A DNA stretch of 32,931 bases from IMG/VR virus record IMGVR_UViG_3300021364_000094, positions 1-32,931 of that record. One strand, given 5' to 3'. This stretch comes from a virus. Numbering within the stretch: the stretch's first letter is position 1; every line of letters begins with the position of its first letter. The notes beneath the pieces are model-generated. The model was not told where the DNA came from. It saw only the letters and a program-made list of their open reading frames with translations, and did no database searches. Below, piece by piece: positions 15,001 through 32,931 of the stretch. Both the position numbers and the translations under genes were made by a program.

Positions 15001-15714
15001 ATCCCTCAATTTACAGATTTAATACAATCTGAACCTGTAAGAGAATCTCTAAGATCAAGAAGACTATTATCTTCTCAAGTTGCAACAGGATTATCATTCC
15101 CAACAGTAGGTAGGGTGTTACTTACTAGTACAGTAGCATCAATTGAGATTGAACCTATTGATAATTTTATTCCAACAACTCCAGATCCTGGAACTGATAC
15201 ATTTACTTTTGAACTTGCAGCATCTACGAATTTCCCAGTTAGATTCTTAAATTCAAAATATACAAATGCTACATATGGAGCAACTCCAAGTGATAATGAT
15301 ACCCTTTCAAATGTTACTGTTGGATATGATTTACCTTTCAACAATATCATTCATTTACAGACCGGCGCACCTACAATATTTGATGAATCATCATTGGGTT
15401 CTGAGATTGTTGAAAATGGTAAAGTTATTTCTAGACCAATAACTAAACAAATTTTAAGAGTCACTTATGGACCAACTACATTTGAAGAATTTGGAGCAGA
15501 TGTAGTTAGATGGGAACCTGATAATGATAATATTGGTGGTAAATTATATTTAAAATTAGATGATACCTCAAATCCACCTCTAATTACTCATCAAATTAAA
15601 ATTACATACCCAACTGATCCAATTACAAGTAACAATTTTAATATTGACGATGATGATTTGATTTCTGAATATCAAACATTATCAGTTGGAGATAAATTTT
15701 ATTATACAACATAA
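6085..15714 (+). CDS. gp7: Giant gp7-like baseplate wedge protein, 3209 residues
   Basis: The position between gp6 and gp8 is that of T4 gene 7, but T4 gp7 is about 1030 residues. From memory, two parts match the C-terminal half of T4 gp7. Residues 1-250 contain YFVQEYPNFVNFLKDYYRFL and DFYLTKGTPRGIEFYFKFLF. Residues about 1945-1975 contain SKWKENYKQTVHPTGYNLFA. Between them lie about 1,700 extra residues. These include repeated GGxGY-type units (near 543, 593, 635, 726, 766, 1035, 1269, 1582, 1661, 1706), a YHYH-like domain at about 855-960 and a 'GDYIKIEDEYIKV ... RGINGT' unit near 1175-1230. After 2045 come repeated 'FIDGVxQ ... INF' beta-domains to about 2920, with further GGxGY units near 2611 and 2651. 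A wedge role is inferred from order and these matches; the added domains probably face outward. Confidence 0.82.
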   Translation: MFNDLRVSNSISGQVPSYFVQEYPNFVNFLKDYYRFLETNGNSLDLLHGIQDLIDIETYTGVDYTAVLREDIDADDEEVLVNGHVKYPLTNGLLKINNEIIFYKTFSYEVFNDIKYTKFTGCVRGYTYNTLTIEEGFKPNVKTTPESHTAGATVENQSYTYLLYFLEQLREQYLSDFPKGILADNLEKGLNINNLLKKIKDFYLTKGTPRGIEFYFKFLFQQKSEIRNYRDSIFTPSDAIYEDKVVVRLENLDSFTVPNLILKELVQSDNTFTILSFESLYSNKTLALEYEISTPEKLLPTKFAKIISTPNLEKKYIYVDSTEGFPSNGILKYRDFFINYTSKQSNYFVCDDTIQRISTFFNGNLTHSLGEYVYDLNTLCVLKDFPEFYFSVYTGIANVSTTKNIGYVPGDIGFVSQVTLSNDPILTSWVYNDILPARTNNGLLSSVTNLYFSDTAAFLSVSKVPFSQHPGEGSPQNNELEMGANRLSLIDRFVKIPRIFNLRDFSNRENTIAQFPVGLMIDGTPLMNWKNNNVVTLGRIESIDIQNGGSNFNIDSPPIIVVNEPTTDENGKETAELELKISGAVSEVNIENGGSGYPKNVSIFVKKSDNNDPNVDFRQAILSAVVVGGKITRVKIIDPGSGYTDTPSIEITPDFTQANSAGTPADISALVEGSIYRVDYKTDGNNNPIKGKKYTQNPSYELKKGFGATAVPIISNGKLTDITLINEGKEYNSPPKVNVIDISGSGIGAKVISKIINGKVTDFSIINSGINYNENTTRLEIVESGEGDLINLNTQIWTPVNNYFQPINSDGSFIEEIDSENNIVTYNILGFPKNLKYHDKSTNTYQSIEFGTESDNHSPIIGWAFDGSPIYGPFGFREALDSGSEIAKMTSGYRKKTSFDSIRQQVGGLGLAQFEIGYFAEDWEWIPDPLNLDQENGRFCVTPEFPNGVYAYFATIETLNPETQNKEGFPYFVGSKYKGSTFNEFNTKEIRNLFEENITKFISNNDTVSIKPVDPGLFAVESIPESTDSKLSSIEVSNGGDLYKFGDKVVFDNTETQGFGASAFVSVLKGRNVVNVSKELYDYIEYEDESSPITEGTVLKTNNGYEGTVYNVNQTRKQIYIDRTAGTTIDEGFEIFDDQNLTDTLIQTKLTETINNNLFTTSLTNDVGRTSLLITVNSVSNISVGDYIKIEDEYIKVIRINGTELFVIRGINGTISKSYSANDSVKILNKLNVFSSVEFLINDVIKIESEVFRIVNILSTRESSIQGINIINGGSGISAGTYYLYFDGILQTNGGNNATTVTVLNGSVTQLTFDENTSISDNPLVQIGDSATYASANFLTGITIKASKFRHVLDVERAIFSTTAQQHLSGLGVSGQNFISATVTKFEQDRILTTIGAQSNLLVPDDEITVTASLQTLVSKEITISNSQILVDGTAVNSLDLFEGYSYTFTANGLKFEFFGISTDSNNNFIPGKRYFDVTVEEVFDNSGELETFTIKPKASDLTQYFLVITDPDNPTITKNILINTISEPINGLYKIIRSTSSDFTFYTETDPGNQFISNYNSQTIKYTTTSTTAKGPIEFVTLTSGGFSYVTPPGVSTVTSNEGIGAILTPKTNSIGVINNITNNFSGYGFSSDFRQKPVVRFPQISQIDNIFTVSSANLISGGEDYLFTPRVVVTGGGLSDNDPSHAVIEATAAKTGIREILNLDLISRGQKYNSAPNIIIEKYYFVELNGSGSSTTLTFKFPFSQYIRQDDKFKIRGYYLNNNGEEIFAESNTFLANLQTTTITCRESGSNVDLDPRTTGTLATVNQDILRYEFISESRVATANAIVTKSSFTPSEKIIFNVEEGIDKFGFVSRNFGWQPANSTLRIENFNYQFQVGDTVFGESSKSVGVISKVESSSSIGELGVTVKKPKTFLTKNSFLGSNFEKLQDSFRYQRFAYEIGVDTPLSKWKENYKQTVHPTGYNLFARTTIRNDVRIGAVEDDPNKNGITVIPNQVISTSVAQEISIRRKYNYLLTQNVGDVEVKVLNKELTDVKQTKDAIVAVFEDFSDQFDGIKTSFLLRAIDPLNPEIDNQPNYIENYDVDQMLVLLDNVIQTYGSSWFVTDSDKNIRFTSSQSQGELLPEGEKIIYRKFNDSTVIHESSEVVSSAGSVFPIRDNSGSAWPSGTFSSIDNDNYLVFIDGICQNNSVFTISNTNNGQIDFGSDILPVDTQISVRYISGLLKNEFTSGSVTANTAVTLSNKPSLSTSKQSYFVFVDGALMTSGDDSIYDIDANKDIVFNVSFNYDSLVVVIDPLGVALTTQEDDIIAEKYSYKIEDGQLEIPVGTVINPEEYILEIAGVVQTPYLVYEILSSGERKINFTEPPRRFLSEENDPNTDDDDILVGRQFIGLLYQRSDPTGSGGTTKNYQFDDISQNIIQIKENLDNFMVGDNISRSDGLSLATIVDKKSTSTKIIAESQFVNASFAPNDTGTITVNSLKNIFEGDRFEFNGGIGLTSIDDDEIEITSINYNTNVITITNISSNTLSITIEIDDNFNVKHNTIEISNLETSIANKDDAFVDGSVILSGAANLQSTNVNSTIDNTVGLRLDSAIARVQAGNVSNGALTGNADIVNGGSLYASPLPEIKLIGGSGSGATINATVVGGVITQLALSGGTGYDAADLPELIIGGPPASVLEVPTGDGASFSIGDYIFINETEVVKITGISTDDLTVSRGELGTNVQDFYIKTTNIRKVIPYQVTAKSFRRGFDGDKTSFKLTEEFRATNIPVDSDIFVILNGVLQKIGANDSYTLSESGGEIFINFTEAPKFSSPCNIFYLGQTISVQNISDKFNGVRKVFELRDSLGEIFSFVAKDQANANISANLIIFIDGVYQIPSVISDDREPAYSDSLSSYRLFGSLIEFSAPPSPGATFEAFIYVGSNTDYETIDIEPAVESGDFIDQSNERSEREVINIISSNTLAVTDSLGQIENISGNIPQFTDLIQSEPVRESLRSRRLLSSQVATGLSFPTVGRVLLTSTVASIEIEPIDNFIPTTPDPGTDTFTFELAASTNFPVRFLNSKYTNATYGATPSDNDTLSNVTVGYDLPFNNIIHLQTGAPTIFDESSLGSEIVENGKVISRPITKQILRVTYGPTTFEEFGADVVRWEPDNDNIGGKLYLKLDDTSNPPLITHQIKITYPTDPITSNNFNIDDDDLISEYQTLSVGDKFYYTT

Positions 15715-23100: not shown

Positions 23101-23407
23101 AAGAATTGAATTAGCTGCATATAATCCTGCAAATATTGCAGATATTGATGTTTTAATTAAAGTATTGAGCGGTGAAGAATCTGATCCAAATCAAATTAAT
23201 TGGATTAATTTGGACGATGCTGCTTTTTCAAATTCTAACAAAAGAGGAACTGAAAATTTTGCAGATCAAAGATGGAATTTTGATATAACTGATCTTACCC
23301 CTAACGGTAAGGCATTTACTTCATTCCAGGTTAAAATTAGAATGCGCTCCTCTAACCAATCCTACCCACCATTAGTTAAAGATTTGAGATGCATAGCTCT
23401 AGCCTAA
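17192..23407 (+). CDS. DUF4815-type large baseplate/fiber-base protein, 2071 residues
   Basis: The N-terminus (TPPYFEDFDPKKKFNKVLFK, then PGVPLQARELTTLQSILQDQ) is the signature of DUF4815 phage structural proteins. Residues about 1120-1185 form an unusual Arg/Ser/Thr-rich segment (WTTRRRSSSSRIETRS, then TTSRTTTTSQQSR). It is followed by RSRNIRFKSRRLKPFVELYP and FFDGRDIS, a widespread virion-protein motif. Residues about 1425-1531 (DPLAQSFLVPENDGMFVTKI ... YFQ ... TLEIRTMVNGYPSP ... VYVEGLREYCFAIL ... MWISTMGQ) form another domain common in large phage structural proteins. The C-terminal 500 residues are beta-rich. In T4 this locus holds genes 9 to 12, so the protein probably serves as the outer wedge or fiber attachment part. 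The product's exact role is unknown. Confidence 0.85.
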   Translation: MPQSTNLNTPPYFEDFDPKKKFNKVLFKPGVPLQARELTTLQSILQDQVEKLGSSIYKEGAMVVPGQIGFDLYYNSVLIEDEYFGLASSQLVDFIVGKTITGQSSGIRAKVVNALTAEQSEKGFTTLFIKYITAADDFTSTSFEDDEILIANESFSIGGTVITENTDFAKCITRNATFRGSSSSITSGVYYTKGYFVSVDSQEIILDQFGSTPSYRIGLQVLETIVSSSTDESLNDPSQGFSNFAAPGADRFKLEAKLVKKSLSDNTVTDFIELLRLNNGELVELENGNLNQLDNLLENTLARRTFDESGNYEVEPYIFTKEECLDDGVNNGVYQPLSRTADENVASKDLFEVAVSPGKSYVLGYELTTTSTEYVDVEKARKFRSIEDFITNTDARGFVITLASPPPYVNLNASLSGTRIIALRDASNAIIGYGILLSVQGNDIRLTAIKYLSEKSINNLSEVVIGGTINYVNNTVAGGAVISVSSTSGSAAPKFFKLYQDNVIKSVDDISLTDIRAFASGTLTSGSTTFNNVPFNSDTLGDYEIVLQDTSNVGTVTVNADLQNRTLTVDVGNTSNTQGIVVFGPQTIANPTERLLQYKPMTIARLTNIANKYDINGDVLSLGITRVCKLRGVYIGNSTATPTDTIPNITLTSNLLLQRGEIIEGSSSGAKGRVADVDGAQVYFVYENDNRFIPNEIIKSYQTQLTSNVSTTVNGAEDVKSKFKLNDGQTPNTFEFSSIEKINTSLLIEPNSRIFVIYDVFQDTNYGNGTFTTVNSFYNADLDKVPSYKFEDEEVYLSDVIDFRLDQSDVVTGDGTAQSPFLIQDTEIETNTDLFNYGNNNYEVLPNNQVIPEGYAQSDTIEYYLPTKNTLYLNKDGNFTIKSFEDSVNNSSNNVYEEKNSMPLIDIEIPAYTRDLNKVTFSRYRNNRYTMKDIGEIESRIENVEYYTQLSLLESDTSNLFIPDSNGNNRLKNGFIVDNFTSHDVGEPRHPNYLCSMDFGQGELRPQHNTTNISLKYKDGVEPSNYLKDNLILLNYTDFPIIEQTFASGAENVNPFAVISWIGDIVCTPATDDWIDEIRLPETTTNVEGNFLAEALAEGVTDFRIGGFGRTQWNAWQTDWTTRRRSSSSRIETRSTPPFARRVTTSRTTTTSQQSRTGIRPNVTPRTDRRILGDRVVDTTYSRWKRSRNIRFKSRRLKPFVELYPFFDGRDISTYTTPKLIEIEMLNGQFEVGEDIILVSESSPGRFFRATLDSPTGGTDEITFNKNPYTKELTSSNYTQNSNLLNFNVVKTTIIGNNQGGYLLKDDIIRGENSGARARITNKRFITNESGDLIAAFFIPEPSVEGNPRWKVGESVVRFTDSPTNSLIPGDVDSAGEGNFTASGTILSKQSDVLLVRNAQVRRDDVSETRIIRSSSSSTRTGAWVDPLAQSFLVPENDGMFVTKIDTYFQQKDTSGLPVTLEIRTMVNGYPSPTVIGKATLTPDNVNVSDDASAVTTFTLDAPVYVEGLREYCFAILTSSVEYKMWISTMGQDDLNGNRITGQPYAGVLFKSQNASTWTANQLDDLKFKIYRAEFDISETPEIEFENDASLESTTKRLPIDPIELLLNTQSVPYSVSNPKSTTGYIKINHPNHGMHDPASFVAIDGVKSGVGTTLAADWNGTIGTAIPLTGGNTVEALFKNTTPINGVAPSSTNLAFIRIRDAVYSYDASQANNTLNGTFTITLTALVSGSIPSNGYNGGDNISVEYYIVNGVPLTEINKTHTNLRWITLDSYQIFIDKIRNTTSNISFGGTKVTATTNTLFTNVLPQVTYQELSGTFVTAEMRTTSGTSLSNSSFSDPSNSNIPPERSYIKEPSFSPVNLNDNNYYDTTKLIASNANSIGLMQNQSSVGLKLKLSSNSTKLSPVIDAERVSLIVTSNRISNINGNYKKEYFGDNPGETFTNIELNAITDYNNANYVTKLVNLQNPATALRIELAAYNPANIADIDVLIKVLSGEESDPNQINWINLDDAAFSNSNKRGTENFADQRWNFDITDLTPNGKAFTSFQVKIRMRSSNQSYPPLVKDLRCIALA

Positions 23408-23616
23408 TTTCAGTTGAGGGTCATAGTAATTTTAAACGTGACTCTCGCACTAATGCTATAATAAATACAAATTCTAGTGATTATGAAAAATATATTTCTG
23501 AACGAGAAAATAAAAAAAAATTAGAAGAAACAGTAAAAAACACTGTTAAAGAATTGTCTGAGTTGAAATCTGAGATTGGAGAAATTAAAGAAATGTTATT
23601 AAAAATAATTTCCTAA
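23389..23616 (+). CDS. Small coiled-coil structural protein
   Basis: The product is 75 residues. Residues about 9-33 (VEGHSNFKRDSRTNAIINTN then SSDYEKY) resemble a motif found in short virion proteins of large myophages, with the pattern 'GH.N..RD..T.AI.N.N...Y'. The remainder is one long Lys/Glu-rich helix with hydrophobic spacing fit for a coiled coil (ETVKNTVKELSELKSEIGEI, ending in KIIS). The only upstream ATG is at 23389, inside the end of the previous gene in another frame, giving a 19-nt overlap. The VEGHSN core begins nine residues in. Overlap with a baseplate gene and the coiled coil suggest a small structural or trimerising protein. Confidence 0.78.
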   Translation: MHSSSLISVEGHSNFKRDSRTNAIINTNSSDYEKYISERENKKKLEETVKNTVKELSELKSEIGEIKEMLLKIIS

Positions 23617-23640: not shown

Positions 23641-23991
23641 ATGTCAGCGATACCAATCAATCTTACAATAAACAAAAATACTGACTTCAAGGTTTCTATT
23701 AATATAAGGCAATCAGATAATAATTATCTGGATTTAACTTCTTATTCAGTTGAAGCCAAAATGGCAAGAAACTATACTACAACCAATAAAATTAATTTAA
23801 ATGCTCAAAAAGTTGATCCCTCCACTGGATTAATAGAATTGTCTTTACCAGATGTAAGTTCTGGTTTAATTGTCGGTACGGATAGTTTGAAAATTGGTAG
23901 ATATGTTTATGATGTAATTTTAACGGACTCTTTACTATCTAAAGAAAAAGTTATTACTGGAGTTATTGAAGTTCAACCTTCTATTACATAG
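23641..23991 (+). CDS. Small beta-sandwich structural protein
   Basis: The product is 116 residues. Alternating strands suggest an Ig-like sandwich: PINLTINKNTDFKVSINIRQ, then DLTSYSVEAKMARNY, GLIELSLPDVSSGLI and GRYVYDVILTDS, ending GVIEVQPSIT. The layout resembles the N-terminal domain of phage baseplate upper proteins (BppU-like). That domain describes an intended property plus a chosen range, with 'L.G..V...' and 'G.Y.YDV' strands. This is pattern-level only. A strong Shine-Dalgarno AAGGAAGG precedes the ATG and a late-type motif sits 21 nt upstream. Its place between the DUF4815 protein and the fibers suggests an adaptor in the baseplate. Confidence 0.78.
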   Translation: MSAIPINLTINKNTDFKVSINIRQSDNNYLDLTSYSVEAKMARNYTTTNKINLNAQKVDPSTGLIELSLPDVSSGLIVGTDSLKIGRYVYDVILTDSLLSKEKVITGVIEVQPSIT

Positions 23992-23993
23992 AA

Positions 23994-24275
23994 ATGTCAA
24001 AATATAACGTAAGGTTAAACGCAGGCAATAATAAAATTATTCAGGCAATAAAGAAAAGTCCTGTCAATGTTGATGTATCTACTTCTCAAGAGGTAGATAC
24101 TATTGGAGAATTAGATGATGTTGATCTTACTGATAGGCAAGATGGTTATCTCTTAATGTGGAATCAATCTAGAGCTATACATGAATATGTTCCACCATTT
24201 GAAGTTGTCGATAGATCAGACAGTGATGATCCAGTTCTTCCTGGAGACAATGCCATTGATTATGGTACATTTTAA
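23994..24275 (+). CDS. Small structural protein ending in a DYGTF tail
   Basis: The product is 93 residues and follows the previous gene by 2 nt. The first 25 residues are basic and strand-like (MSKYNVRLNAGNNKIIQAIK). They are followed by an acidic middle (EVDTIGELDDVDLTDRQDGY, then LLMWNQSRAIHEYVPPF). 'L.DV.....DGYLLMWN....YVP' is typical of marine-phage structural proteins in which a short link region precedes a beta strand. The last residues NAIDYGTF resemble the DAGTY ends of two other proteins in this cluster. Function is unknown; an adaptor or fiber-base part fits the location. Confidence 0.75.
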   Translation: MSKYNVRLNAGNNKIIQAIKKSPVNVDVSTSQEVDTIGELDDVDLTDRQDGYLLMWNQSRAIHEYVPPFEVVDRSDSDDPVLPGDNAIDYGTF

Positions 24276-24278
24276 CTC

Positions 24279-24285
24279 CTAAATA
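24279..24285 (+). promoter_or_regulatory. Late promoter-like motif CTAAATA
   Basis: CTAAATA lies 3 nt after the stop of the 93-residue gene and 32 nt before the 561-residue fiber gene. It is identical to the motifs at 23613 and 26248. The start codon is directly preceded by AATTAATCTC, with no clear Shine-Dalgarno. Confidence 0.55.
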
Positions 24286-24317
24286 AAATATAAGGTAAAA
24301 GTAAATTAATTAATCTC

Positions 24318-26003
24318 ATGGCAGCACCACGTTTAAGGTTAAGGAGGGGTACATCCAACCCACAAACATTGACTGGTACGGGGCAAGTTTTTAATACTAC
24401 TCCTGCACTTGTTGGTGAACCATTTTTTTCAGACACTAATGGGACAGCTCCTACAACTGCTGGTGCTGGTACGGGAGATTTTTATATCGCAGATGGTCCT
24501 ACGTCTTTTGTTCATATTGGAGGATCTTCTTATACTTCAAGAGTAGATGAAATTTTAACGGAAAGTACTACTACTGTTGGTAGTATTGTTACCTTTGCCG
24601 AGGGTAGTAATAATGGTAGTAATACTATAGAATTTAAAGCGCCAGCGAGTATAACTGGATCTTATGAATTAACTTTACCTGCAGCAAAACCAGGAGTTGC
24701 AGGTGCATATTTACTTGAATACGATCAAGGTTCAGAAACCCTCTCCTTTGTAGAATCCGGTGCTGGAGAAACAGTTGAGACAGTAAGTAGTGATGTTGAT
24801 GCAAGTTTCTTCCTAACTTTTGTAGATGCAAATAATTCAACTGCAACTGATGAGCAAGTATTTACTGATGGAGAACTTTCATATAATCCAAACACTGATA
24901 TCTTAACAGTAAGTGGAGAAGTTGATGCTCAATCTATTGATGTTGGTTCTACTGGTATTGATATTGCGGGTTCAACTTCAGGAACGGTAACTCTTGTAAC
25001 TGCTGCCGCAGCAGGGTCTACAACAATCACGCTTCCGGCAACTACAGGTGCTGTTGTAACCACTGGTGATAATGGTACTGTTACCAGTACAATGATTGCT
25101 AACGGTACAATTTTAAATGCAGATATTAGTACTACTGCTAATATTGCTGATACCAAATTAGATACAATTTCAACAGCAAATAAAGTTTCTATTTCTGCAT
25201 TAGATATTGATGGCGGTGCTGCACTTACTGCACTTGCCGATGCAGATTTGATTATTGTTGATGATAATGGTTCTGGTGCTAATCGTAAAGCAGCAATAAC
25301 AACAGTTTCTGATTATACATTTTCAAAAGTTAGTGGTGATGTTTTAATCACTAGTATGGGTGTTGCCACTATTCAGGCAAACTCTGTTGCACTTGGTACA
25401 GATACCACTGGTAATTATGTTGCTGATGTATCTGCAGGTGAAGGTCTTGTTAAAACTTCATCTGCAAGTGAAGGACAATCTGTAGATTTAGCATTTAAAA
25501 ATGCTGCAAATTTAACTACAAATACTGTCCTTAAATGGGATGATAGTAATACACAGTTAGTAAATAGTTCTATTGTAGATGATGGCAGTACTGTTACCAT
25601 CACTGGTAATTTAACTGTCACTGGAACGAATACAGTTACTAATGTCCAAACAACCAATACTCAAGTCTCAGATGCTTTACTTGAATTAGGTACTGGTACG
25701 ACTGGAACTCCTGCTGCAACTAGAGACATCGGTTTAATAATGGAGCGTGGTGATGATCCTAATATTTTTATTGGTTTTGATGAGGGTGATGATGTATTTG
25801 TTGCTGGAACAACAACTGCAACTGGATCTAGTACTACTATTGCTCCATCACCAATTGCATTTTTAGCAGGTTCTTATAAAATTACTGACACTGCTGGTAC
25901 TAATGAAAATGTAGTTAGTTATCTTCTTGCAGGTAACGCACCTGATGGCACAACTGCTGGTAGATATCTTCAAAATCTTACGGTAGATGCGGGAACATAT
26001 TGA
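24318..26003 (+). CDS. Tail fiber-like structural protein, 561 residues
   Basis: The product begins MAAPRLRLRRGTSNPQTLTG, a start shared in kind with the 960-residue protein downstream (MAAPKIRLRR). It continues with GEPFFSDT ... GDFYIADGPTSFVHIGG, a fiber N-terminal region. The rest is low-complexity Thr/Ser/Ala/Gly/Val beta repeats such as GSYELTLPAAKPG and STTITLPATTGAVVTTGDNG. Residues about 430-490 (GNLTVTGTNTVTNVQ ... LLELGTGTTG ... IGLIMERGDDPN) form a module that recurs in the partial fiber at 29479. The last five residues are DAGTY. Fibrous beta structure and cluster position suggest a tail fiber or baseplate appendage, but no receptor-binding head is recognisable. Confidence 0.83.
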   Translation: MAAPRLRLRRGTSNPQTLTGTGQVFNTTPALVGEPFFSDTNGTAPTTAGAGTGDFYIADGPTSFVHIGGSSYTSRVDEILTESTTTVGSIVTFAEGSNNGSNTIEFKAPASITGSYELTLPAAKPGVAGAYLLEYDQGSETLSFVESGAGETVETVSSDVDASFFLTFVDANNSTATDEQVFTDGELSYNPNTDILTVSGEVDAQSIDVGSTGIDIAGSTSGTVTLVTAAAAGSTTITLPATTGAVVTTGDNGTVTSTMIANGTILNADISTTANIADTKLDTISTANKVSISALDIDGGAALTALADADLIIVDDNGSGANRKAAITTVSDYTFSKVSGDVLITSMGVATIQANSVALGTDTTGNYVADVSAGEGLVKTSSASEGQSVDLAFKNAANLTTNTVLKWDDSNTQLVNSSIVDDGSTVTITGNLTVTGTNTVTNVQTTNTQVSDALLELGTGTTGTPAATRDIGLIMERGDDPNIFIGFDEGDDVFVAGTTTATGSSTTIAPSPIAFLAGSYKITDTAGTNENVVSYLLAGNAPDGTTAGRYLQNLTVDAGTY

Positions 26004-26009
26004 TAAATA
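26002..26009 (+). promoter_or_regulatory. Late promoter-like motif GATAAATA
   Basis: GATAAATA overlaps the TGA stop of the 561-residue gene and lies 21 nt before the next ATG. It is a one-base variant of TATAAATA. Confidence 0.6.
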
Positions 26010-26030
26010 ATATAACATGAAATTAATCTT

Positions 26031-26246
26031 ATGAATGATATTCAAGTAGATTATGCAACTCTTGTTGAAATTATGACTGTTGAGTTAAATACTTATCAAA
26101 GTCAATTGATTGCATTAAAAGCAAAATTAAAAATTTATGATAAAGAACTTACTGAAGCTTTAAATAAAGTTTCAGAACTTCAGAAAGAAAAACCAGCAAC
26201 TCGTAAAAAATCTGTAAATACAGATAGAGACGCCGGAACATATTAA
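26031..26246 (+). CDS. Short coiled-coil protein between two fiber genes
   Basis: The product is 71 residues. Residues about 8-52 are a continuous helix with heptad-like hydrophobic spacing (LVEIMTVELNTYQSQLIALK, then LKIYDKELTEALNKVSELQ). A basic linker (KPATRKKSVNTDR) and the end DAGTY follow. That end is the same as in the preceding 561-residue fiber-like protein. The ATG is preceded directly by AATTAATCTT and not by a Shine-Dalgarno sequence. A coiled coil with a fiber-type tail suggests a trimerising adaptor or assembly factor for one of the neighbouring fibers. This is inference from size, helix and position. Confidence 0.78.
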   Translation: MNDIQVDYATLVEIMTVELNTYQSQLIALKAKLKIYDKELTEALNKVSELQKEKPATRKKSVNTDRDAGTY

Positions 26247-26247
26247 C

Positions 26248-26254
26248 CTAAATA
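26248..26254 (+). promoter_or_regulatory. Late promoter-like motif CTAAATA
   Basis: CTAAATA lies 1 nt after the stop of the 71-residue gene and only 10 nt before the next ATG. If it acts as a late promoter, the transcript would have a leader of just a few bases. It may instead be a conserved remnant of the junction sequence. Confidence 0.42.
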
Positions 26255-26264
26255 GGTAATTCTA

Positions 26265-29147
26265 ATGGCAGCACCAAAAATACGCTTGAGGCGTTCAGCA
26301 ACTGCTGGAAACGCTCCCACTACTTCGCAGATAGAATTAGGTGAAGTAGCGATTAATACTCATGATGGTAAAATATTTTTAAAAAGAGATCAGAGTGGCA
26401 CAGAAAGAATTGTAGATGTCACTGCACCTCTTGAAGCAAACGAACCCATGGGGCACAATAATGCCTCAGAAAGTACAATATCATTTACTGATGCAACTAG
26501 AGTATTTTCTATTGCACCCGTATCAACTAGATTCGACGTTTGGTGTCAAGGTATTAGATTTGCATTTACCTCGGCACAAACAACTACAATACCAAATACA
26601 AATGGATTGTATTATATTTACTTTGATGGCGATGGAGTTTTGCAAAATAAAGCAGCAAGTTCTGCAGATATAGATTATAAAACAGAAGTTCCAACTGCAA
26701 TTTTATATTGGAATGGAAGTTCTGCTGCTTTTATATTTGATACCAGACATGGAATTACTTTAGATTGGCAAACTCATGAGTATTTGCAAAAAACTAGAGG
26801 TGCAGTAGTTGCATCTGGATTTACTGCAGTAAGTTATTCTACTTCTGGTGATGGCACTACAAATAGTCATGCACAATTTGGTTTAGGTGATTCTGGGGTA
26901 TTTTATAATGAAGACTATAAAGTTTCTATAAACCATGCTTCATCCCCTTCAAATTTATTTGAACAAATTATATCTGGTGCTGGGCAGTTTCCAATTTTAC
27001 GTAGGGATGGAACTGGTGGTCAATGGACAAGAGATGCTGCTACTTCATATCCTGTAAAATTTTCTACAGGTAATCTTATTGAATATAATGTTTCTGGATC
27101 TTCTTGGTCTTCTTCTCAAGTAACTGATGGAAATTATGCAGTTTATTTTATAGTTGCTACTTCGGATATTAATGCTCCTATAGTTTCTATTCAGGGGCAG
27201 GGAGATTTTGCAACTTTAAATGATGCAGTAACATCGGAGTTTGAAGATTTAGATCTGGGCAATGATGATCTTACAAATGCCCCAAAATTTCCTCGTAATG
27301 ATGTAAGACCATTATTTAAATTAATTTTTGAGGCAAATAGTACTTTCACTAATGCACCAAAAGCACGTTTAGTAAATATATTAGATCTAAGACAAAATGT
27401 TTCTGTTGAATTAACAGGAGCACAAGGATCGTCAATTGCTGTAACTGCTCCTGAATCTAATATCATATATGTAAGTAAAGATGGAGATGATGCAAATATT
27501 GGTGCTACTTTAGGGACAGCAAAAGCTACAATTAAATCTGCACTATCAGTTGCATCTGCTGGAACTGTTGTTAGAGTTTATCCTGGCGAATATACAGAGA
27601 ATAATCCAATTATAATGCCTGCACAAACTTCCATTGTTGGTAGTAGTTTAAGAGAAGTTACACTTAAACCACAGAATGGAAATACTGATTTTATCTATGT
27701 AAATAATGGTTGCTATATTTCTGATTTATCATTTAATTCATCATCCTCTAATAATGGTGATGTAATTTCATACAATCCAAGTGATCCTCCATATATTGAT
27801 CAATCTCCATATATTCAAAATTGTACCAATTTTATTACTGGGTCAACCGGTCTTCATATTGATGGAGACGATGCGATTGGGGATATTAAATCAATGGTAG
27901 TTGATAGTTTTACTCAATTTAATTCTGGAGGAGTTGGATGTAAAATTAGCAATGAGGGTTATGCTCAATTAGTTTCTATGTTTACTATATGCACAGAAAC
28001 AGCAGTAGAATGTAATAATGGTGGAAGTTGCGACTTAACAAATTCAAATTCATCTTTTGGAACTAAAGGTTTAGTTGCTGATGGTGTAAGTCCTAAAAAA
28101 TATACGGGCACAGTGGCACAAGCGTCAAGTGCTGGAGATAATACAATTAGAGTAAATATTGCAACTACTCAAAGAAGTGTTTCTACAGCATCTTATGCAG
28201 AAACTACTGGAGTATTAACTGTAACTACAACAGCAGCACATGGGTTTGAAGTGGGAATGGATGTAAAGATTGAAAACCTTACCTTCAGTTGCACAAGTCC
28301 AAGTGGTACTGCAGTATTCCCATCAGGTAATTATGGTTATATTTTTAAAGTAGAATCTACTCCATCTACAACACAATTTACAGTAAATGTCGGTACATCC
28401 ACAATTGCACACACTTATGTATCGGGAGGAACTGCTGAAATAGAAGCAGTACGTCCATTTGCAGGACAAGTAGTTTTCTTTGATACTTTATATTATGAAG
28501 TTACTAAAATTAATGTTACTAATGGGGGTAGTGGATACGATCCAAATAATCCTCCTACAGTAACACTTGCAAGTTCTCCAGAAAGTTGGGGTATTGACGC
28601 CGAGGCAATCGCAGAGGTATCAAGCACTGGAGTAGTAACTTCTATTACTGTAACTTCTAATGGTAGGGGTTATGGTTCAACTATAGCAAACCCAACAATT
28701 TCTGCACCAACTTCTGGAACTACAGCAACAGCAACAGCACAATTAAGTCCTTCATATTTTATCGTAGAATCTTCATTTGAAACTTCTACAGATGTATATG
28801 ATATTACATTTTCTAACGAAGTTCCTATTGCATTGACAACCAGTAGCGTTGCTAATTTTTACAAACAAAGTAGACTTTTAGCATCAAGTCATTCATTCCA
28901 ATATATAGGATCAGGTACTAATATTAATACTGCTCTCCCCCAAACTGGAGGAGTTCCAATCCCAGAAAATGAAACTATTAATCAAAATGGTGGATTAGTA
29001 GTTTTTACAAGCACGAATGAATCTGGAAACTTTAAAATTGGTGATGGCGTAGTTATAGATCAAGCTCTGGGTCGAATTTCCGGTCAATCATATTCACAAA
29101 GTCTATTTTCTCAAGTAACACCTTATATCATCGCACTAGGAGGTTAA
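26265..29147 (+). CDS. Tail fiber / tailspike-like protein with beta-helix region, 960 residues
   Basis: The N-terminus MAAPKIRLRRSATAG plus QIELGEVAINTHDGKIFLKR is a classic phage fiber attachment segment. Residues about 404-480 (VSKDGDDANIGATLGTAKAT ... VRVYPGEYTENNPIIMP ... GSSLREVTLKP) match the start of a right-handed parallel beta-helix of the pectate-lyase type. Short strand repeats follow to about 610. Such helices bind or cut surface sugars; no catalytic residues can be assigned here. Residues about 645-730 (GVLTVTTTAAHGFEVGMDVK ... VNVGTSTIAHTYVSGG) and a GGxGY pair near 748-800 are repeats seen in other marine phage structural proteins. It probably contacts the cell surface. The codons for its last two residues and stop overlap the AGGAGG site of the next gene. 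Confidence 0.87.
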   Translation: MAAPKIRLRRSATAGNAPTTSQIELGEVAINTHDGKIFLKRDQSGTERIVDVTAPLEANEPMGHNNASESTISFTDATRVFSIAPVSTRFDVWCQGIRFAFTSAQTTTIPNTNGLYYIYFDGDGVLQNKAASSADIDYKTEVPTAILYWNGSSAAFIFDTRHGITLDWQTHEYLQKTRGAVVASGFTAVSYSTSGDGTTNSHAQFGLGDSGVFYNEDYKVSINHASSPSNLFEQIISGAGQFPILRRDGTGGQWTRDAATSYPVKFSTGNLIEYNVSGSSWSSSQVTDGNYAVYFIVATSDINAPIVSIQGQGDFATLNDAVTSEFEDLDLGNDDLTNAPKFPRNDVRPLFKLIFEANSTFTNAPKARLVNILDLRQNVSVELTGAQGSSIAVTAPESNIIYVSKDGDDANIGATLGTAKATIKSALSVASAGTVVRVYPGEYTENNPIIMPAQTSIVGSSLREVTLKPQNGNTDFIYVNNGCYISDLSFNSSSSNNGDVISYNPSDPPYIDQSPYIQNCTNFITGSTGLHIDGDDAIGDIKSMVVDSFTQFNSGGVGCKISNEGYAQLVSMFTICTETAVECNNGGSCDLTNSNSSFGTKGLVADGVSPKKYTGTVAQASSAGDNTIRVNIATTQRSVSTASYAETTGVLTVTTTAAHGFEVGMDVKIENLTFSCTSPSGTAVFPSGNYGYIFKVESTPSTTQFTVNVGTSTIAHTYVSGGTAEIEAVRPFAGQVVFFDTLYYEVTKINVTNGGSGYDPNNPPTVTLASSPESWGIDAEAIAEVSSTGVVTSITVTSNGRGYGSTIANPTISAPTSGTTATATAQLSPSYFIVESSFETSTDVYDITFSNEVPIALTTSSVANFYKQSRLLASSHSFQYIGSGTNINTALPQTGGVPIPENETINQNGGLVVFTSTNESGNFKIGDGVVIDQALGRISGQSYSQSLFSQVTPYIIALGG
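29138..29143 (+). promoter_or_regulatory. Strong ribosome binding site AGGAGG inside the previous gene
   Basis: A full AGGAGG sits 7 nt before the ATG at 29151. It is formed by the last sense codons (GGA GGT) of the 960-residue fiber gene. It is the best Shine-Dalgarno in the fiber region, and it suggests strong or coupled translation of the 108-residue protein. Confidence 0.75.
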
Positions 29148-29150
29148 CCC

Positions 29151-29477
29151 ATGGCATTAAAATTAAACGTTTATAAAACAGTTACACCATCAGTTTCTAC
29201 TTCTGCAACAGTAGTTTATACTGCTCCCACTGGATATACTGGTATTGTATTGTTAGCGAATATTTCAAATCCTACTACTGGAACGCTTACAGTTACATTA
29301 GAGCATAGAAGAAGTGCAACAGATACAAGTATTGTTACTGATTTTCCTATAAGTAGTAAAGATTCTACAAATTTAATAGATGGTAAATTATTCTTACAGT
29401 CTGGAGATCAGTTAGTATTATCTGGTCAAGCAACTACATTAGAAACAGTAATATCTATCCTGGAGACACTCAACTAA
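29151..29477 (+). CDS. Small beta-sandwich structural protein
   Basis: The product is 108 residues, a compact all-beta protein: VYKTVTPSVSTSATVVYTAP, then GIVLLANISNPTTGTLTVTL, an EHRRSATDTSIVTDFPIS loop, and LFLQSGDQLVLSGQATTLET. The pattern (gene-flanking 'P.G.T.IVL...I.N......V.V' and 'L.L..GD.L.L') is common in small virion proteins encoded next to marine-phage tail fibers. It may decorate or connect the fiber. It has a consensus AGGAGG ribosome site and ends 1 nt before the next fiber gene, so it is probably made in large amounts and coupled to that gene. Confidence 0.78.
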   Translation: MALKLNVYKTVTPSVSTSATVVYTAPTGYTGIVLLANISNPTTGTLTVTLEHRRSATDTSIVTDFPISSKDSTNLIDGKLFLQSGDQLVLSGQATTLETVISILETLN

Positions 29478-29478
29478 A

Positions 29479-32400
29479 ATGGCAAAATATCTTTCAAACC
29501 GAGTAAGAACTTTTGATATTGGTATTACTAGTATTACTGAATCTGATGTTGTATTGAACGTTATTGGTAATAGTACCTTTACAGGCGCTACCACATTCCA
29601 AGGAGACGTTCGTATTACTGATGATGATAAATTAAGATTTGGAACTTCTAGTGGTGGAATTCTTCAGATTTATACAAACGGAACTAATTCATTCTTTAAA
29701 CAGACAAGTGGTGATTTAAAATACGAACTTGCTGATCAGTTCGTAGTTCAAAAAGATTCTGGCGATGAACCAATCGCAGTCTTTACTGCTGATGGTTCAG
29801 TAGAACTCTACTACGACAATTCTAAGAAATTTGAAACTACTGCTACTGGTGCAACTCTAACTGGAACTTTAATTGCTGATGGTGTTGATCTTGGAGATGA
29901 TGAAGAAATTCGGTTGGGTGATGGTAATGACTTACAGATTTATCATGACTCTAATTTTAATAATGGCATTATAAAAGAATCTGGATCTGGAAATTTATTA
30001 TTGGGTGGAAACGATATATTTTTTAGAGATTCTGCACTTTCAGAATTATATGCGAGGTTTATCAGAAACGGAGCAGTAGAACTCTACTACGACGACGCCA
30101 AAAAATTTGACACCACTGCTTCTGGTATTGATGTAACTGGTCTCACAGAAACTGATACCTTAAATGTTTCTGGTGTTTCTACATTCCAAGATAACGTTAC
30201 CTTTGCTGATTCTGTACGGGCAGACTTTGGTAATGACCAAGATCTGAGAATTGTTCATATTGCCAACCAAAATTGGATTCAGAATTATACGGGTAATTTC
30301 AATATCAATCAAAACTCTGATGATTCTGATATTACTTTTAGATCTGATGATGGTTCTGATGGATTAGCTGACTATATTAACATAGATGGTAGCACTGGTG
30401 AGGTTGTTCTTTACCATTATGGCACTCAGAAACTTGCCACTAAGTCTGGTGGTATTGATGTAACAGGTCTTACTGAAACTGATACCTTAAGAGTTTCTGG
30501 TGTTTCTACATTCCAAGATAATGTTCAGCTTGGTGACAATGATGAATTAAGGATTGGTGATAGTGATGATTTAAAGATTTTTCATGATGGAAATGCCAAT
30601 TATATTGTAGGTAATAATGGAACACTTAATCTCAAAAGTGATTCTTATGCTTATTTGAAAGCTTTCAATACAGATGGTAAGGTGCAAATTTATCATGGCA
30701 ACTCTGTAAAACTTGAAACTACTTCTACTGGTGCAGATTTAACTGGATCTCTCAGAGCATCTACTTCATTAGTTACTACAACTGATGGAACTGGTATTAC
30801 TATTACTAATAATACAATTGAAGGTCCAACAACTTTAACAATTGATCCAGCAGCAGTCGGAGATAATACCGGTACGGTGGTAATTGCAGGTAACCTCCAA
30901 ATTGATGGAACGACCACAACTGTGAATTCAACCACGATGTCAGTGGATGATAAAAACCTTGAGTTAGGTACAGGTGCTGCGAATGATGCTGCAGCTGATG
31001 GTGGTGGTATTACTATTGTATCTGGAGATGGAAATAAGACATTCCAATTTGAAGCAACAGGAGATAATTTAGGGTCTTCTGAAAATTTAAATCTAGCCAA
31101 TACTAAAGAATATAAAATTAACAATACTTCAGTATTGAGCGCAACAACTCTTGGTAGTGGGGTAACTTCTTCTTCACTTACATCAGTAGGGACACTTAAT
31201 GGTCTTACCGTTGATGGTGATTTGTTGATATCTGATAAAATTACTCATTTGGGTGATACTAATACGGCTATCAGGTTCCCTGCTAATGATACGATTAGAC
31301 TTTCAACATCTGGTTCTTCTAGACTTGATGTTACTCAAAATGGTTATATTTTACTAGGAACGACTAGTGAACCTTCTGGTGGTGATGCTCATGCACAAAA
31401 TGCAAAATTACTTATTCAAGGAAGAATTGGTAATACTTCTGATAGTGGTCGTATCAATCTACAAAGAGGATCATCTGCATCTAATGGTTCTAGTATTGGA
31501 AGTATTAGTTTTACTGATAATAGTAATAATGCTTTTTCTAGAATTGAAACTTTTGCTGATGCTACACCAGGAAATGCCAGTTTTCCAGGCAGAATTGTTT
31601 TCAGTACGACAAATGACGAGGCAACAACACCAACAGAAAAACTTCGTATAACTAATGATGGTCAAGTTAGTATTGGAGCTGATTTAAGTCAGTCTACTAG
31701 TGCAAAGTTAACTGTTGAAGGATCAGCCACATCAAGCAATCTCAATCAAACTTTAGTGGTCAGAGATAGTAATACTAATGATGCTGTTGGTAATGGTGGA
31801 TTTATAGGTCTTGCTGGATTTGTAAACAATGTTCCTAGAACTTTTGCTGGTATACGTGGATTAAAAAGTTCTTCTGGTACTAGTTTTAATGGTGGTCTTG
31901 CTTTTTATACAAGACAAAATGCTGTAGCAGATTTAGATGAAAAACTTCGTATAACTTCTGCTGGTCTGGTCGGAATCGGAATTGGTAATCCTTCAGCAAA
32001 ACTTCATGTATCTGGAGGAGACCTATACGTAAACTCTTTAGATGGTAGTGAAGTAGACATTAAACTTGGTATTCATGCCACACATTCTAACTTTGGTGTT
32101 ATTAAAAATGTAAGAGCATCTGACTCTCAAAACTATCTATCCTTTAACATACACCAAAGTGGCACATTATATGAGGCTTTACAAATTCATTACGATGAAG
32201 GTGTTTATGTTAGGGGAAATGGAAGCTATGACACGACCGCATATACAGGAAATGTTGCTCATGTACTTTTTGGTGATCAAGAAAGACAATTTGCTGATTT
32301 AGTTGCAGAAAGCGAGAGTACTTCTAGTGCCCTTGGATCTCTTGTATTTAAAACAAAAGGATCTGTTGGATTATTCCCACAAGAAAGACTTCGTATAACT

Positions 32401-32931
32401 TCTGATGGTAAGTTTGGATTTGGAACTAATAATCCGCAAGGAACTGTACATATTTCATCAGGAACTTCTGGAGATGCAACGTTAATTCTTGAAGCAGATA
32501 CTGACAATGATCAAGAAGCAGACAATCCATATATTGTGTTTAGGCAAGATGGTGGTGTTAGTGCCTCTGCGATAGGACATGGTGTAGATTCTGGAGTTGA
32601 TGGTAATGGATTGACCATAGCAAATTCAATTTCTAGTGGATTTATATCTTTTGCTACAGGAACTACAAATGGTTATACAAACGCGACAGAAAAACTTCGT
32701 ATAACTTCTGATGGTTCGGTCGGAATCGGAACTGATAATCCAGACACACTTCTGCACTTACAGTCTAATAATCCTATCCTTAAAATTACAGATGCTAATC
32801 AAGCAACAGATAATAAGAGTTGGAACATTGGTGCCGGACAACCTCAAATATTAAGAATTCAAGCAATTAATGATTCCGGTACAGGTGGTGGAAAACTATT
32901 TGATTTTTATAGAGATGGTACTCAGGTTGAA
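29479..32931 (+). CDS. Repetitive tail fiber protein, partial (3' end outside window)
   Basis: An uninterrupted frame from ATG at 29479 runs to the last base, giving 1151 codons without a stop. The product starts MAKYLSNRVRTFDIGITSIT. Two repeat families are visible. Four units of 92-109 residues start at residues 108, 200, 309 and 402 with motifs such as VELYYDNSKKFETTATG, often followed by 'LGDxxELRxGDxxDLxIxHD'. Then 'EKLRITSDGxVGIGTxNP' units start at residues 720, 821, 969 and 1071. Residues about 471-530 match a module in the 561-residue fiber. This is the usual build of marine-phage long fibers, often ending in an S74-type self-cleaving chaperone; that end lies outside the window. Confidence 0.9.
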   Translation, partial: MAKYLSNRVRTFDIGITSITESDVVLNVIGNSTFTGATTFQGDVRITDDDKLRFGTSSGGILQIYTNGTNSFFKQTSGDLKYELADQFVVQKDSGDEPIAVFTADGSVELYYDNSKKFETTATGATLTGTLIADGVDLGDDEEIRLGDGNDLQIYHDSNFNNGIIKESGSGNLLLGGNDIFFRDSALSELYARFIRNGAVELYYDDAKKFDTTASGIDVTGLTETDTLNVSGVSTFQDNVTFADSVRADFGNDQDLRIVHIANQNWIQNYTGNFNINQNSDDSDITFRSDDGSDGLADYINIDGSTGEVVLYHYGTQKLATKSGGIDVTGLTETDTLRVSGVSTFQDNVQLGDNDELRIGDSDDLKIFHDGNANYIVGNNGTLNLKSDSYAYLKAFNTDGKVQIYHGNSVKLETTSTGADLTGSLRASTSLVTTTDGTGITITNNTIEGPTTLTIDPAAVGDNTGTVVIAGNLQIDGTTTTVNSTTMSVDDKNLELGTGAANDAAADGGGITIVSGDGNKTFQFEATGDNLGSSENLNLANTKEYKINNTSVLSATTLGSGVTSSSLTSVGTLNGLTVDGDLLISDKITHLGDTNTAIRFPANDTIRLSTSGSSRLDVTQNGYILLGTTSEPSGGDAHAQNAKLLIQGRIGNTSDSGRINLQRGSSASNGSSIGSISFTDNSNNAFSRIETFADATPGNASFPGRIVFSTTNDEATTPTEKLRITNDGQVSIGADLSQSTSAKLTVEGSATSSNLNQTLVVRDSNTNDAVGNGGFIGLAGFVNNVPRTFAGIRGLKSSSGTSFNGGLAFYTRQNAVADLDEKLRITSAGLVGIGIGNPSAKLHVSGGDLYVNSLDGSEVDIKLGIHATHSNFGVIKNVRASDSQNYLSFNIHQSGTLYEALQIHYDEGVYVRGNGSYDTTAYTGNVAHVLFGDQERQFADLVAESESTSSALGSLVFKTKGSVGLFPQERLRITSDGKFGFGTNNPQGTVHISSGTSGDATLILEADTDNDQEADNPYIVFRQDGGVSASAIGHGVDSGVDGNGLTIANSISSGFISFATGTTNGYTNATEKLRITSDGSVGIGTDNPDTLLHLQSNNPILKITDANQATDNKSWNIGAGQPQILRIQAINDSGTGGGKLFDFYRDGTQVE
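30124..30525 (+). repeat. Pair of 75-nt direct repeats inside the fiber gene
   Basis: Positions 30124-30198 and 30451-30525 are 69 of 75 bases identical and 327 nt (109 codons) apart. Both encode GIDVTGLTETDTL followed by VSGVSTFQDNV with one changed residue (Asn to Arg). The substitutions are mostly silent. The pair marks a recent duplication, or a gene-conversion tract, within the fiber repeats. Confidence 0.9.
31636..32715 (+). repeat. Four EKLRITSDG repeats in the fiber gene
   Basis: The sequence GAAAAACTTCGTATAACT or a one-base variant recurs in frame at 31636, 31939, 32383 and 32689, so the spacing is 303, 444 and 306 nt. Each copy encodes E(K/R)LRIT followed by a short turn and a strand ending (V/F)xIG or GFG. 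The near identity of codons across copies is stronger than protein conservation needs. Confidence 0.88.

Follow-up and report, generated by a model that had tools for sequence, protein, structure and literature searches.

A C-terminal tag shared by fiber chains of a marine T4-like phage locus, with predicted dual coding at closely spaced gene junctions

The marine T4-like phages count among the ocean's most abundant viruses. C-terminal chaperones are a frequent requirement of phage fibers, as established for T4- and Mu-type fibers, and in the map of T4 itself gp11-gp12-wac lie between gp10 and gp13. Attachment to the virion has been described for T4 fibritin, which binds the neck by its N-terminus (PMC3797505), and for DT57C, in which LtfC forms a ring that anchors the fibers, the connection being made by short donated strands (PMC10713586). 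The window considered in this work, the 32,931 nucleotides of IMG/VR record IMGVR_UViG_3300021364_000094 (positions 1 to 32,931), is a fragment of a T4-like marine myovirus, Kyanoviridae-like, in which a fiber locus, flanked by gp10/VrlC and gp13, contains three tag-bearing gene ends that come shortly after an LtfC homologue.

Gene order and the LtfC-like protein

The locus is read from the following genes:

23389..23616, + strand: virion structural protein, 75 aa (phrog_473, E 3e-23), first gene after the VrlC/gp10-like gene
23641..23991, + strand: LtfC-like beta-sandwich protein, 116 aa, homologue of the T5 p132 / DT57C LtfC collar protein
23994..24275, + strand: small fiber/adaptor protein, 93 aa, ending DYGTF (weak phrog_13853 match)
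24318..26003, + strand: fiber protein, 561 aa, MAAPRLRLRR start, DAGTY end (orthologues in L002, L003, L006, L007, and L008)
26031..26246, + strand: coiled-coil-like protein, 71 aa, with the DAGTY end in the window clade only (counterpart of P-SSM2 PSSM2_119)
26265..29147, + strand: fiber, 960 aa, MAAPKIRLRR start, no tag (phrog_17885, E 4e-163)

The 75-aa gene keeps its position in P-SSM2, P-HM1, S-CAM9, and S-T4; the P-SSM2 homologue of the 960-aa fiber sits elsewhere in that genome. Both ORFs with the MAAP start, at 24318 and 26265, begin with ATGGCAGCACCA. The 93-aa protein has homologues in five IMG/VR loci and distant ones across Kyanoviridae; by tblastn, neither it nor the 71-aa protein matched annotated phages, both being too divergent, and a PDB search with the small-protein profile returned chance hits only. 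Related loci were gathered by gp13 scans and by single-protein scans.

The 116-aa protein at 23641-23991 belongs to the LtfC (T5 p132) family by both homology and fold. Searched alone it gives no LtfC match; Pfam LtfC matches 7 of the 9 members of its family, and the family profile finds 7qg9_R (p132; E 3.6e-5) and 8hqz_Q (E 5e-4) in the PDB. Its AF2 model (pLDDT 86) has the beta-sandwich fold of LtfC, with 7qg9 (E 1.3e-7) and 8hqz (E 1e-6) as best Foldseek matches, at a query TM of 0.65-0.71. An LtfC homologue is encoded in all five larger or complete tag-bearing genomes tested, including P-SSM2; it need not adjoin the tag, being found elsewhere in P-SSM2 and in the L095 genome. Nor is gp13 adjacency a requirement, as seen in loci L040 and L047, where LtfC, the tagged genes, and the coiled coil have moved jointly to a position after gp13-gp14-gp15. 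S-CAM3 and HTVC008M encode LtfC without tagged genes, so not every LtfC needs the tag. An apparent LtfC-fiber fusion in L062 was rejected as a functional Rosetta-stone fusion: only the first ~44 LtfC residues are left, and it thus looks like an in-frame deletion.

A C-terminal tag specific to the fiber locus

The three tag copies in the window are:

24258..24275, + strand: copy 1, DYGTF and TAA (GATTATGGTACATTTTAA), ending the 93-aa ORF 23994-24275
25986..26003, + strand: copy 2, DAGTY and TGA (GATGCGGGAACATATTGA), ending the 561-aa ORF 24318-26003
26229..26246, + strand: copy 3, DAGTY and TAA (GACGCCGGAACATATTAA), ending the 71-aa ORF 26031-26246, lineage-specific

A first-pass annotation of the window had reported these ends, the TAAATA after each, and the two MAAPxxRLRR starts, and is right base for base. 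The three ends are nevertheless unequal: copies 1 and 2 occur in protein classes that are tagged across the whole group, whereas the 71-aa coiled coil is tagged in the window clade only, its homologues ending in SEAF, EEF, NQSEE, and similar. At the position of copy 1 the homologues show a conserved D-[YAG]-G-[TS]-[FY]; within the window clade the variants follow gene class, DYG in the small protein and mostly DAG in the fiber.

The sequence D-x-G-x-(F/Y/W)-COOH is a real, locus-specific C-terminal tag. In the related loci, tag-type ends are found in 56 of 86 interval genes and in 2 of 984 others, both of which belong to the same fiber locus. Across a held-out set of 231 IMG/VR loci the tag ends 282/382 interval genes and 0/1,099 other genes, counts that are not of independent events, since the loci share phylogeny. 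When genes are chosen by position alone, ignoring the motif, it is present in 125/126 with a close-coupled next gene and in 51/59 with a distant one. In a six-frame pattern search of ten complete genomes, the strict tag-like gene ends seen fall in the fiber locus; of the strict matches beyond these, the one examined is antisense within a P-HM1 gene. Synonymous tag codons vary, and the constraint therefore acts on the protein. A few fibers run one residue past the tag (DGGTFV, DGGTYS, DGGTWE), and in S-SM1, whose virion proteome is published (PMC3037559), a large structural protein replaces the tagged module.

Tagged fiber families include phrog_13853, phrog_3384, and phrog_15769, and tagged genes of known cyanophages include PSSM2_117 and PSSM2_118 (P-SSM2) and PHM1_092 and PHM1_093 (P-HM1). 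The tagged cyanophage genes are annotated as hypothetical or of unknown function, one as YadA domain-containing, and none of the annotations or papers retrieved mentions the shared end with its dual use; among the best-ranked open-access literature matches to the strings DGGTF, DGGTY, DGGSF, DAGTY, and IDGGT there was no phage-fiber work.

Tag codons and the start of the next gene

With the next ATG no more than 6 nt away, the second tag residue is Gly in 109/109 junctions of the held-out loci, as against 15/26 far junctions (1.7e-9), at which Ala, Tyr, or Cys are also found, the window included; the codons are GGAGG-like in 108/109 near and 8/26 far junctions (Fisher 2.6e-15), with near and far partly tracking clades. 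The discovery set gives 34/35 versus 4/35, and internal Gly-Gly pairs of the same genes start with GGA/GGG in only 16%. In 70 near junctions, which have a 1-nt stop/start overlap, GGAGG/GGGGG lies 9 nt before the ATG; in the other 38 it lies 10-16 nt before it. The near-junction tag codons, GGA/GGG-GGN, are thus shown to have the sequence and the spacing of a predicted Shine-Dalgarno of the next gene, and this putative dual use is new here. An anti-SD complement at the right spacing is found at near junctions only; the window junctions are 18-42 nt apart.

The window lineage instead has spaced genes with late-promoter-like TAAATA between them, and residue 2 would therefore be free for Ala or Tyr. 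TAAATA is the T4-type late-promoter motif; the T4-type late promoter of S-PM2 is NATAAATA (PMC2984593). It follows the tags at 24280, 26004, and 26249, preceded by C at 24280 (CCTAAATA) and by A at 26004 (GATAAATA):

24280..24285, + strand: late-promoter-like TAAATA at junction 1; TAAATA or TATAAATA in 6/6 clade members
26004..26009, + strand: late-promoter-like TAAATA at junction 2, directly after the stop (TGATAAATA); kept in 6/6 clade members
26247..26256, + strand: CCTAAATAGG at junction 3, conserved as CCTANATAGG, its TAAATA not conserved

A conserved intergenic motif of this type is thus present at junctions 1 and 2 and no conserved site at junction 3, where 4/6 clade members read TACATA or TAGATA within the conserved stretch. 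Close-coupled junctions of the held-out loci have TAAATA in 0/109 cases.

Fiber exchange, the role of the tag, and known systems

Among near-identical relatives, 130 replacements fall within tagged genes and 10 elsewhere, about 42-fold per base. L224 and L227, for example, are 99.0% identical upstream over 2.5 kb, then carry 686 and 335 nt of unrelated sequence, with homology resuming 20 nt upstream of the stop-codon end; L237 and L238 are 96% identical on both sides, with homology resuming at 41 nt. Between the unrelated tips ..PTWTSxIDGGxY and ..GTLxAGLIDGGxY, homology resumes exactly 20 nt before the end of the stop. The 3' breakpoints lie at or upstream of the tag, never past it, and each of the 130 replacements has its 5' breakpoint within the fiber gene (146-1,871 nt in, median about 550). 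Exchange takes in the distal fiber half, and the tag is retained when this half is replaced by unrelated sequence.

The first-pass annotation had suggested that the repeated ends could be DNA homology junctions at which whole fiber genes are swapped as cassettes, had raised the tail peptide as a possible shared docking signal, and had proposed a comparison across relatives. Its expectation of turnover holds, both in the concentration of exchange in tagged genes and in the 3' edge at or before the tag; the outcomes that it had named as telling against it, no turnover in relatives or an end motif absent or unconserved elsewhere, are not what the 130 replacements and the 282 tagged genes of the held-out set show. 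The junctions as repeats for gene swapping did not hold up: no whole gene was exchanged junction to junction in the 130 replacements, and with the 5' edge inside the fiber gene, this is not a trade of cassettes from one junction repeat to another. The stretch common to the junctions is ~15-20 nt long, with synonymous differences, and its codons are not homogenised within genomes; given the same residue, they agree in 55% (65/119) within a genome and in 48-50% between genomes, a small difference whose significance was not computed. The likeness of DNA noted before two of the stops, a 10-bp identity (GGAACATATT), is present, and by this per-codon measure is a coincidence of codons only. One within-species set (45 ACG-2014f records) showed no exchange at the locus. 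L040 does have a duplicated small gene, its two adjacent tagged copies sharing a nearly identical stretch; the cassette mechanism nonetheless seems to us quite improbable. Still less credible is that the motif is merely a Shine-Dalgarno, DGG being what GATGGAGG encodes before an overlapping gene: this would suit the codons of 108 of 109 near junctions, but offers no account of the terminal F/Y/W, and at far junctions, where no SD is needed, 51 of the 59 genes picked without reference to the motif still have the D, the Gly3, and the terminal aromatic. As a full explanation it is refuted.

It is fairly probable that this is a fiber-assembly locus whose short and long fiber chains end in D-x-G-x-(F/Y/W)-COOH as an assembly or docking signal, with dual coding at near junctions. 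The locus would encode a collar-type LtfC-like protein, a short fiber/adaptor, a long fiber, and a small coiled-coil protein; as a shared, conserved end peptide, the tag is plausible as a signal that one shared partner recognizes, whether joint, cap, chaperone, or collar component, an arrangement that may let different fiber tips plug into the same virion slot. The first candidates for this partner are the LtfC-like protein and other proteins of the module. Against docking, the tag is at the presumed distal end, and the DT57C fiber docks on LtfC via N-terminal strands and not via its C-terminus (PMC10713586). For the 93-aa protein, AF2 gave a monomer of low quality (pLDDT 64) that is uninformative on the tag. 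That the tag instead belongs to the folded tip at the C-terminus of a trimeric fiber, as a last beta strand or trimer cap serving folding or stability and not docking to a separate partner, is rather unlikely. In its favor, the sequences closed by the tag include beta-rich ones of fibers (..NYILTTNxxGIPTWTSxIDGGTY) and small proteins for which a beta hairpin is predicted, and an invariant Gly and a terminal aromatic would fit a chain end that is packed; but the tag is common to at least two unrelated tip sequences and a short protein that share only the last ~five residues, and one of the tagged proteins of the window clade is coiled-coil-like. A signal for a fiber-specific chaperone or protease, absent from or unused by the finished virion, is a further reading, and the locus does have small unassigned genes such as the coiled-coil gene; it appears improbable, as no chaperone candidate consistently follows the tagged genes, and single-gene loci (S-T4, S-SRM01, ACG-2014f) retain the tag yet lack the coiled-coil gene. 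The docking or assembly reading can be extended, more tentatively, to all exchangeable fiber chains of the locus across marine T4-like phages: the tag may be their sole common attachment or assembly signal, its codons also setting translation of the next gene and so locking tag and gene order together.

In practice, the five-residue tag offers an easy means of finding all fiber chains of the locus in metagenomes, marks the side of fiber-tip swaps that stays fixed, and opens the docking question to direct tests; a protein tag lying over a predicted ribosome-binding site would be a clean natural two-code case, with near and far junctions as a built-in control.

The locus resembles the T5-like fiber collar (T5 p132, DT57C LtfC; 7qg9, 8hqz) in having an LtfC-like beta sandwich directly upstream of the tagged fiber genes. 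The T5-like phages, however, are siphoviruses in which LtfA attaches by its N-terminus, whereas the marine myovirus locus is known here from genes and predicted fold; the portions of the DT57C LtfC/LtfA description considered make no mention of a C-terminal D-x-G-x-aromatic tag (PMC10713586). With the T4 gp11-gp12-wac region it shares its place on the map, which has a gp10/VrlC-type baseplate gene on one side and gp13 on the other; no sequence relation to gp12 or fibritin was found. The tagged fiber genes of P-SSM2 and P-HM1 share both the locus and the C-terminal tag. As in tip exchange of the T4 gp37/gp38 type (PMC3797505), the distal fiber half is replaced among close relatives while the flanks are conserved; here, however, the conserved 3' flank is not an adhesin/chaperone gene but a five-residue chain end and the start of gp13.

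The fiber locus and its terminal tag

The window is a 32.9-kb virus record and derives from a T4-like marine myovirus. Besides baseplate wedge genes it has a VrlC/gp10-like gene (2,071 aa), next a gene for a structural protein of phrog_473, and behind that the fiber locus, in an order that matches S-SRM01, P-HM1 and S-CAM9. One arrangement is common to IMG/VR relatives and annotated cyanophages: gp8 and VrlC/gp10 are followed by one or two small proteins, then by a 112-aa protein and another small one of ~75 aa; often a ~550-aa fiber and often a ~65-aa coiled-coil protein come next, and gp13 is last. On the T4 map, gp11-gp12-wac occupy this position. In P-SSM2, the final three genes ahead of gp13 are PSSM2_117-119. 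Profile and predicted fold both identify the 112-aa protein as homologous to T5 p132 and DT57C LtfC. The genes concerned in the window are:

23994-24275, 93-aa protein ending in DYGTF
24318-26003, 561-aa fiber ending in DAGTY
26031-26246, 71-aa coiled-coil-like protein ending in DAGTY
26265-29147, 960-aa fiber

The three gene ends, three TAAATA motifs and two MAAP starts reported here by the first-pass annotation proved correctly placed when the sequence was re-read. The tag, D-x-G-x-(F/Y/W) at the C-terminus, ends 56 of 86 genes between LtfC and gp13 in the discovery loci vs 2 of 984 other genes (both mis-assigned members of the same locus), and 282/382 vs 0/1,099 in held-out loci, where the untagged interval genes mostly encode the coiled-coil protein or end with W or one to two extra residues. 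When genes are chosen by position behind LtfC alone, the tag ends 125/126 of those whose next gene is close and 51/59 of those whose next gene is distant. A degenerate pattern searched across ten complete genomes found strict tag-like gene ends only at the fiber locus; the single other strict match examined runs antisense within a P-HM1 gene. The constraint acts on the protein, since synonymous tag codons vary and are scarcely more alike within genomes (55% agreement) than between them (48-50%). We found no description of the tag in the open-access papers searched.

Elsewhere in the window, a 3,209-aa baseplate wedge protein (6085-15714) contains a YHYH domain (PF14240, E 1.6e-24, residues 836-957), and a 111-aa protein (2423-2758) with repeated glycine-rich patterns (GRVGDLFAPH, GRIGDAIGCGD) presumably resembles a PAAR-type spike tip. 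Directly behind the tagged genes lies a phrog_17885 fiber module (26265-32931: 960, 108 and 1,151+ aa); the homologous fiber, together with the small gene that follows it, is far from the tagged genes in P-SSM2 and S-SRM01, and the module here occupies a different place. In two related loci, L040 and L047, the whole module follows gp13 and three further genes instead of preceding gp13, and tagged small genes stand two in tandem (L040:8252-8811, L047:4282-4835), a duplication of the small gene; the middle of the L040 pair is nearly identical (VLVTADQVLSTSSEDNDLPDDF).

Tag codons and junction DNA

Near junctions are those with the following ATG no more than 6 nt from the stop codon; there, the tag bases look like the next gene's Shine-Dalgarno sequence. 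In the discovery set, in which the pattern was first seen, residue 2 is Gly in 35/35 near and 12/35 far junctions, with GGAGG-like codons in 34/35 and 4/35; separate test loci gave 109/109 vs 15/26 for Gly (Fisher 1.7e-9) and 108/109 vs 8/26 for the codons (Fisher 2.6e-15), near and far junctions partly tracking clades. Both kinds occur in each of S-CAM9, P-HM1 and L047, which show the expected difference in residue 2 and codons. At near junctions these codons stand most commonly 9 nt ahead of the ATG in a TAATG or TGATG overlap, and internal Gly-Gly pairs of the same genes use GGA or GGG first in only 16%. An SD-like tetramer precedes 43% of the genes that start with ATG across these loci; SD use is therefore normal for these phages. 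Residue 2 is free only where genes have separated, which explains DYGTF and DAGTY in the window, where distances of 42, 27 and 18 nt separate the ends from the following starts. In the eight SD-like far ends the following start is just 7-13 nt off; these ends may be inherited from overlapping ancestors.

TAAATA occurs at 18/26 far vs 0/109 near junctions. Cyanophage late promoters read NATAAATA (PMC2984593), and the spacers between the window's tagged genes are late-promoter-like. Behind the 71-aa gene, CCTAAATAGG (26247-26256) overlaps what is probably the ribosome-binding site of the fiber gene that follows; it is kept as CCTANATAGG in 6/6 clade members, with the CCTA/TAGG arms retained and the middle base variable.

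Exchange of fiber tips

The first-pass annotation proposed that fiber genes could be swapped by recombination at their repeated junctions. Turnover is indeed concentrated in tagged genes: 614 pairs of similar loci, which are not independent, gave 130 unrelated-sequence replacements inside them vs 10 elsewhere, ~42-fold commoner per base. Whole cassettes are not traded between junctions, however; in related loci the 5' edges fall 146-1,871 nt inside the gene, rather than at the upstream junction, and the 3' edge always keeps a distance of at least 20 nt from the stop end. Since the 5' edge is internal and the 3' edge spares the tag, distal fiber halves are exchanged while the tag stays. When one of the two tip types, ..PTWTSxIDGGxY or ..GTLxAGLIDGGxY, is substituted for the other, the 3' edge lies exactly 20 nt from the stop end. 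ACG-2014f records show no turnover at the locus. T4 is a well-known case of fiber-tip exchange (PMC3797505).

A possible partner for the tag

Local, held at the protein level and resistant to swapping, the tag, whose codons seem to serve also as Shine-Dalgarno-like sequence, would have a common partner that recognizes it, either while the virion is assembled or in the virion itself. One candidate is LtfC, since in L040 and L047 the module travels with it and all larger tag-bearing genomes tested encode it; but LtfC is also present in genomes without tags. P-SSM2 has two tandem LtfC homologues far from its tagged genes (NC_006883, 173643-175171, minus strand), and the genome behind locus L095 has three; at L062:3309-4364, the first ~44 LtfC residues are joined to a tagged fiber, apparently by in-frame deletion.

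In the window (24318-24350, 26265-26297; MAAPRLRLRR/MAAPKIRLRR) and in related locus L008 (8354, 10233; MADPRLQL/MADPKVQV), the two fibers of a genome have similar-looking N-termini, which could reflect a shared N-terminal docking partner. The N-termini RVRVGQQNAIKVV and MAAPRLRLRR look like short strands; they could attach to LtfC, in which case the C-terminal tag would be available to a joint or cap. In DT57C, fibers join a 12-subunit LtfC ring by donated strands (PMC10713586), and the use known for LtfC, with fiber N-termini, speaks against LtfC as the tag's partner, the tag here being C-terminal.
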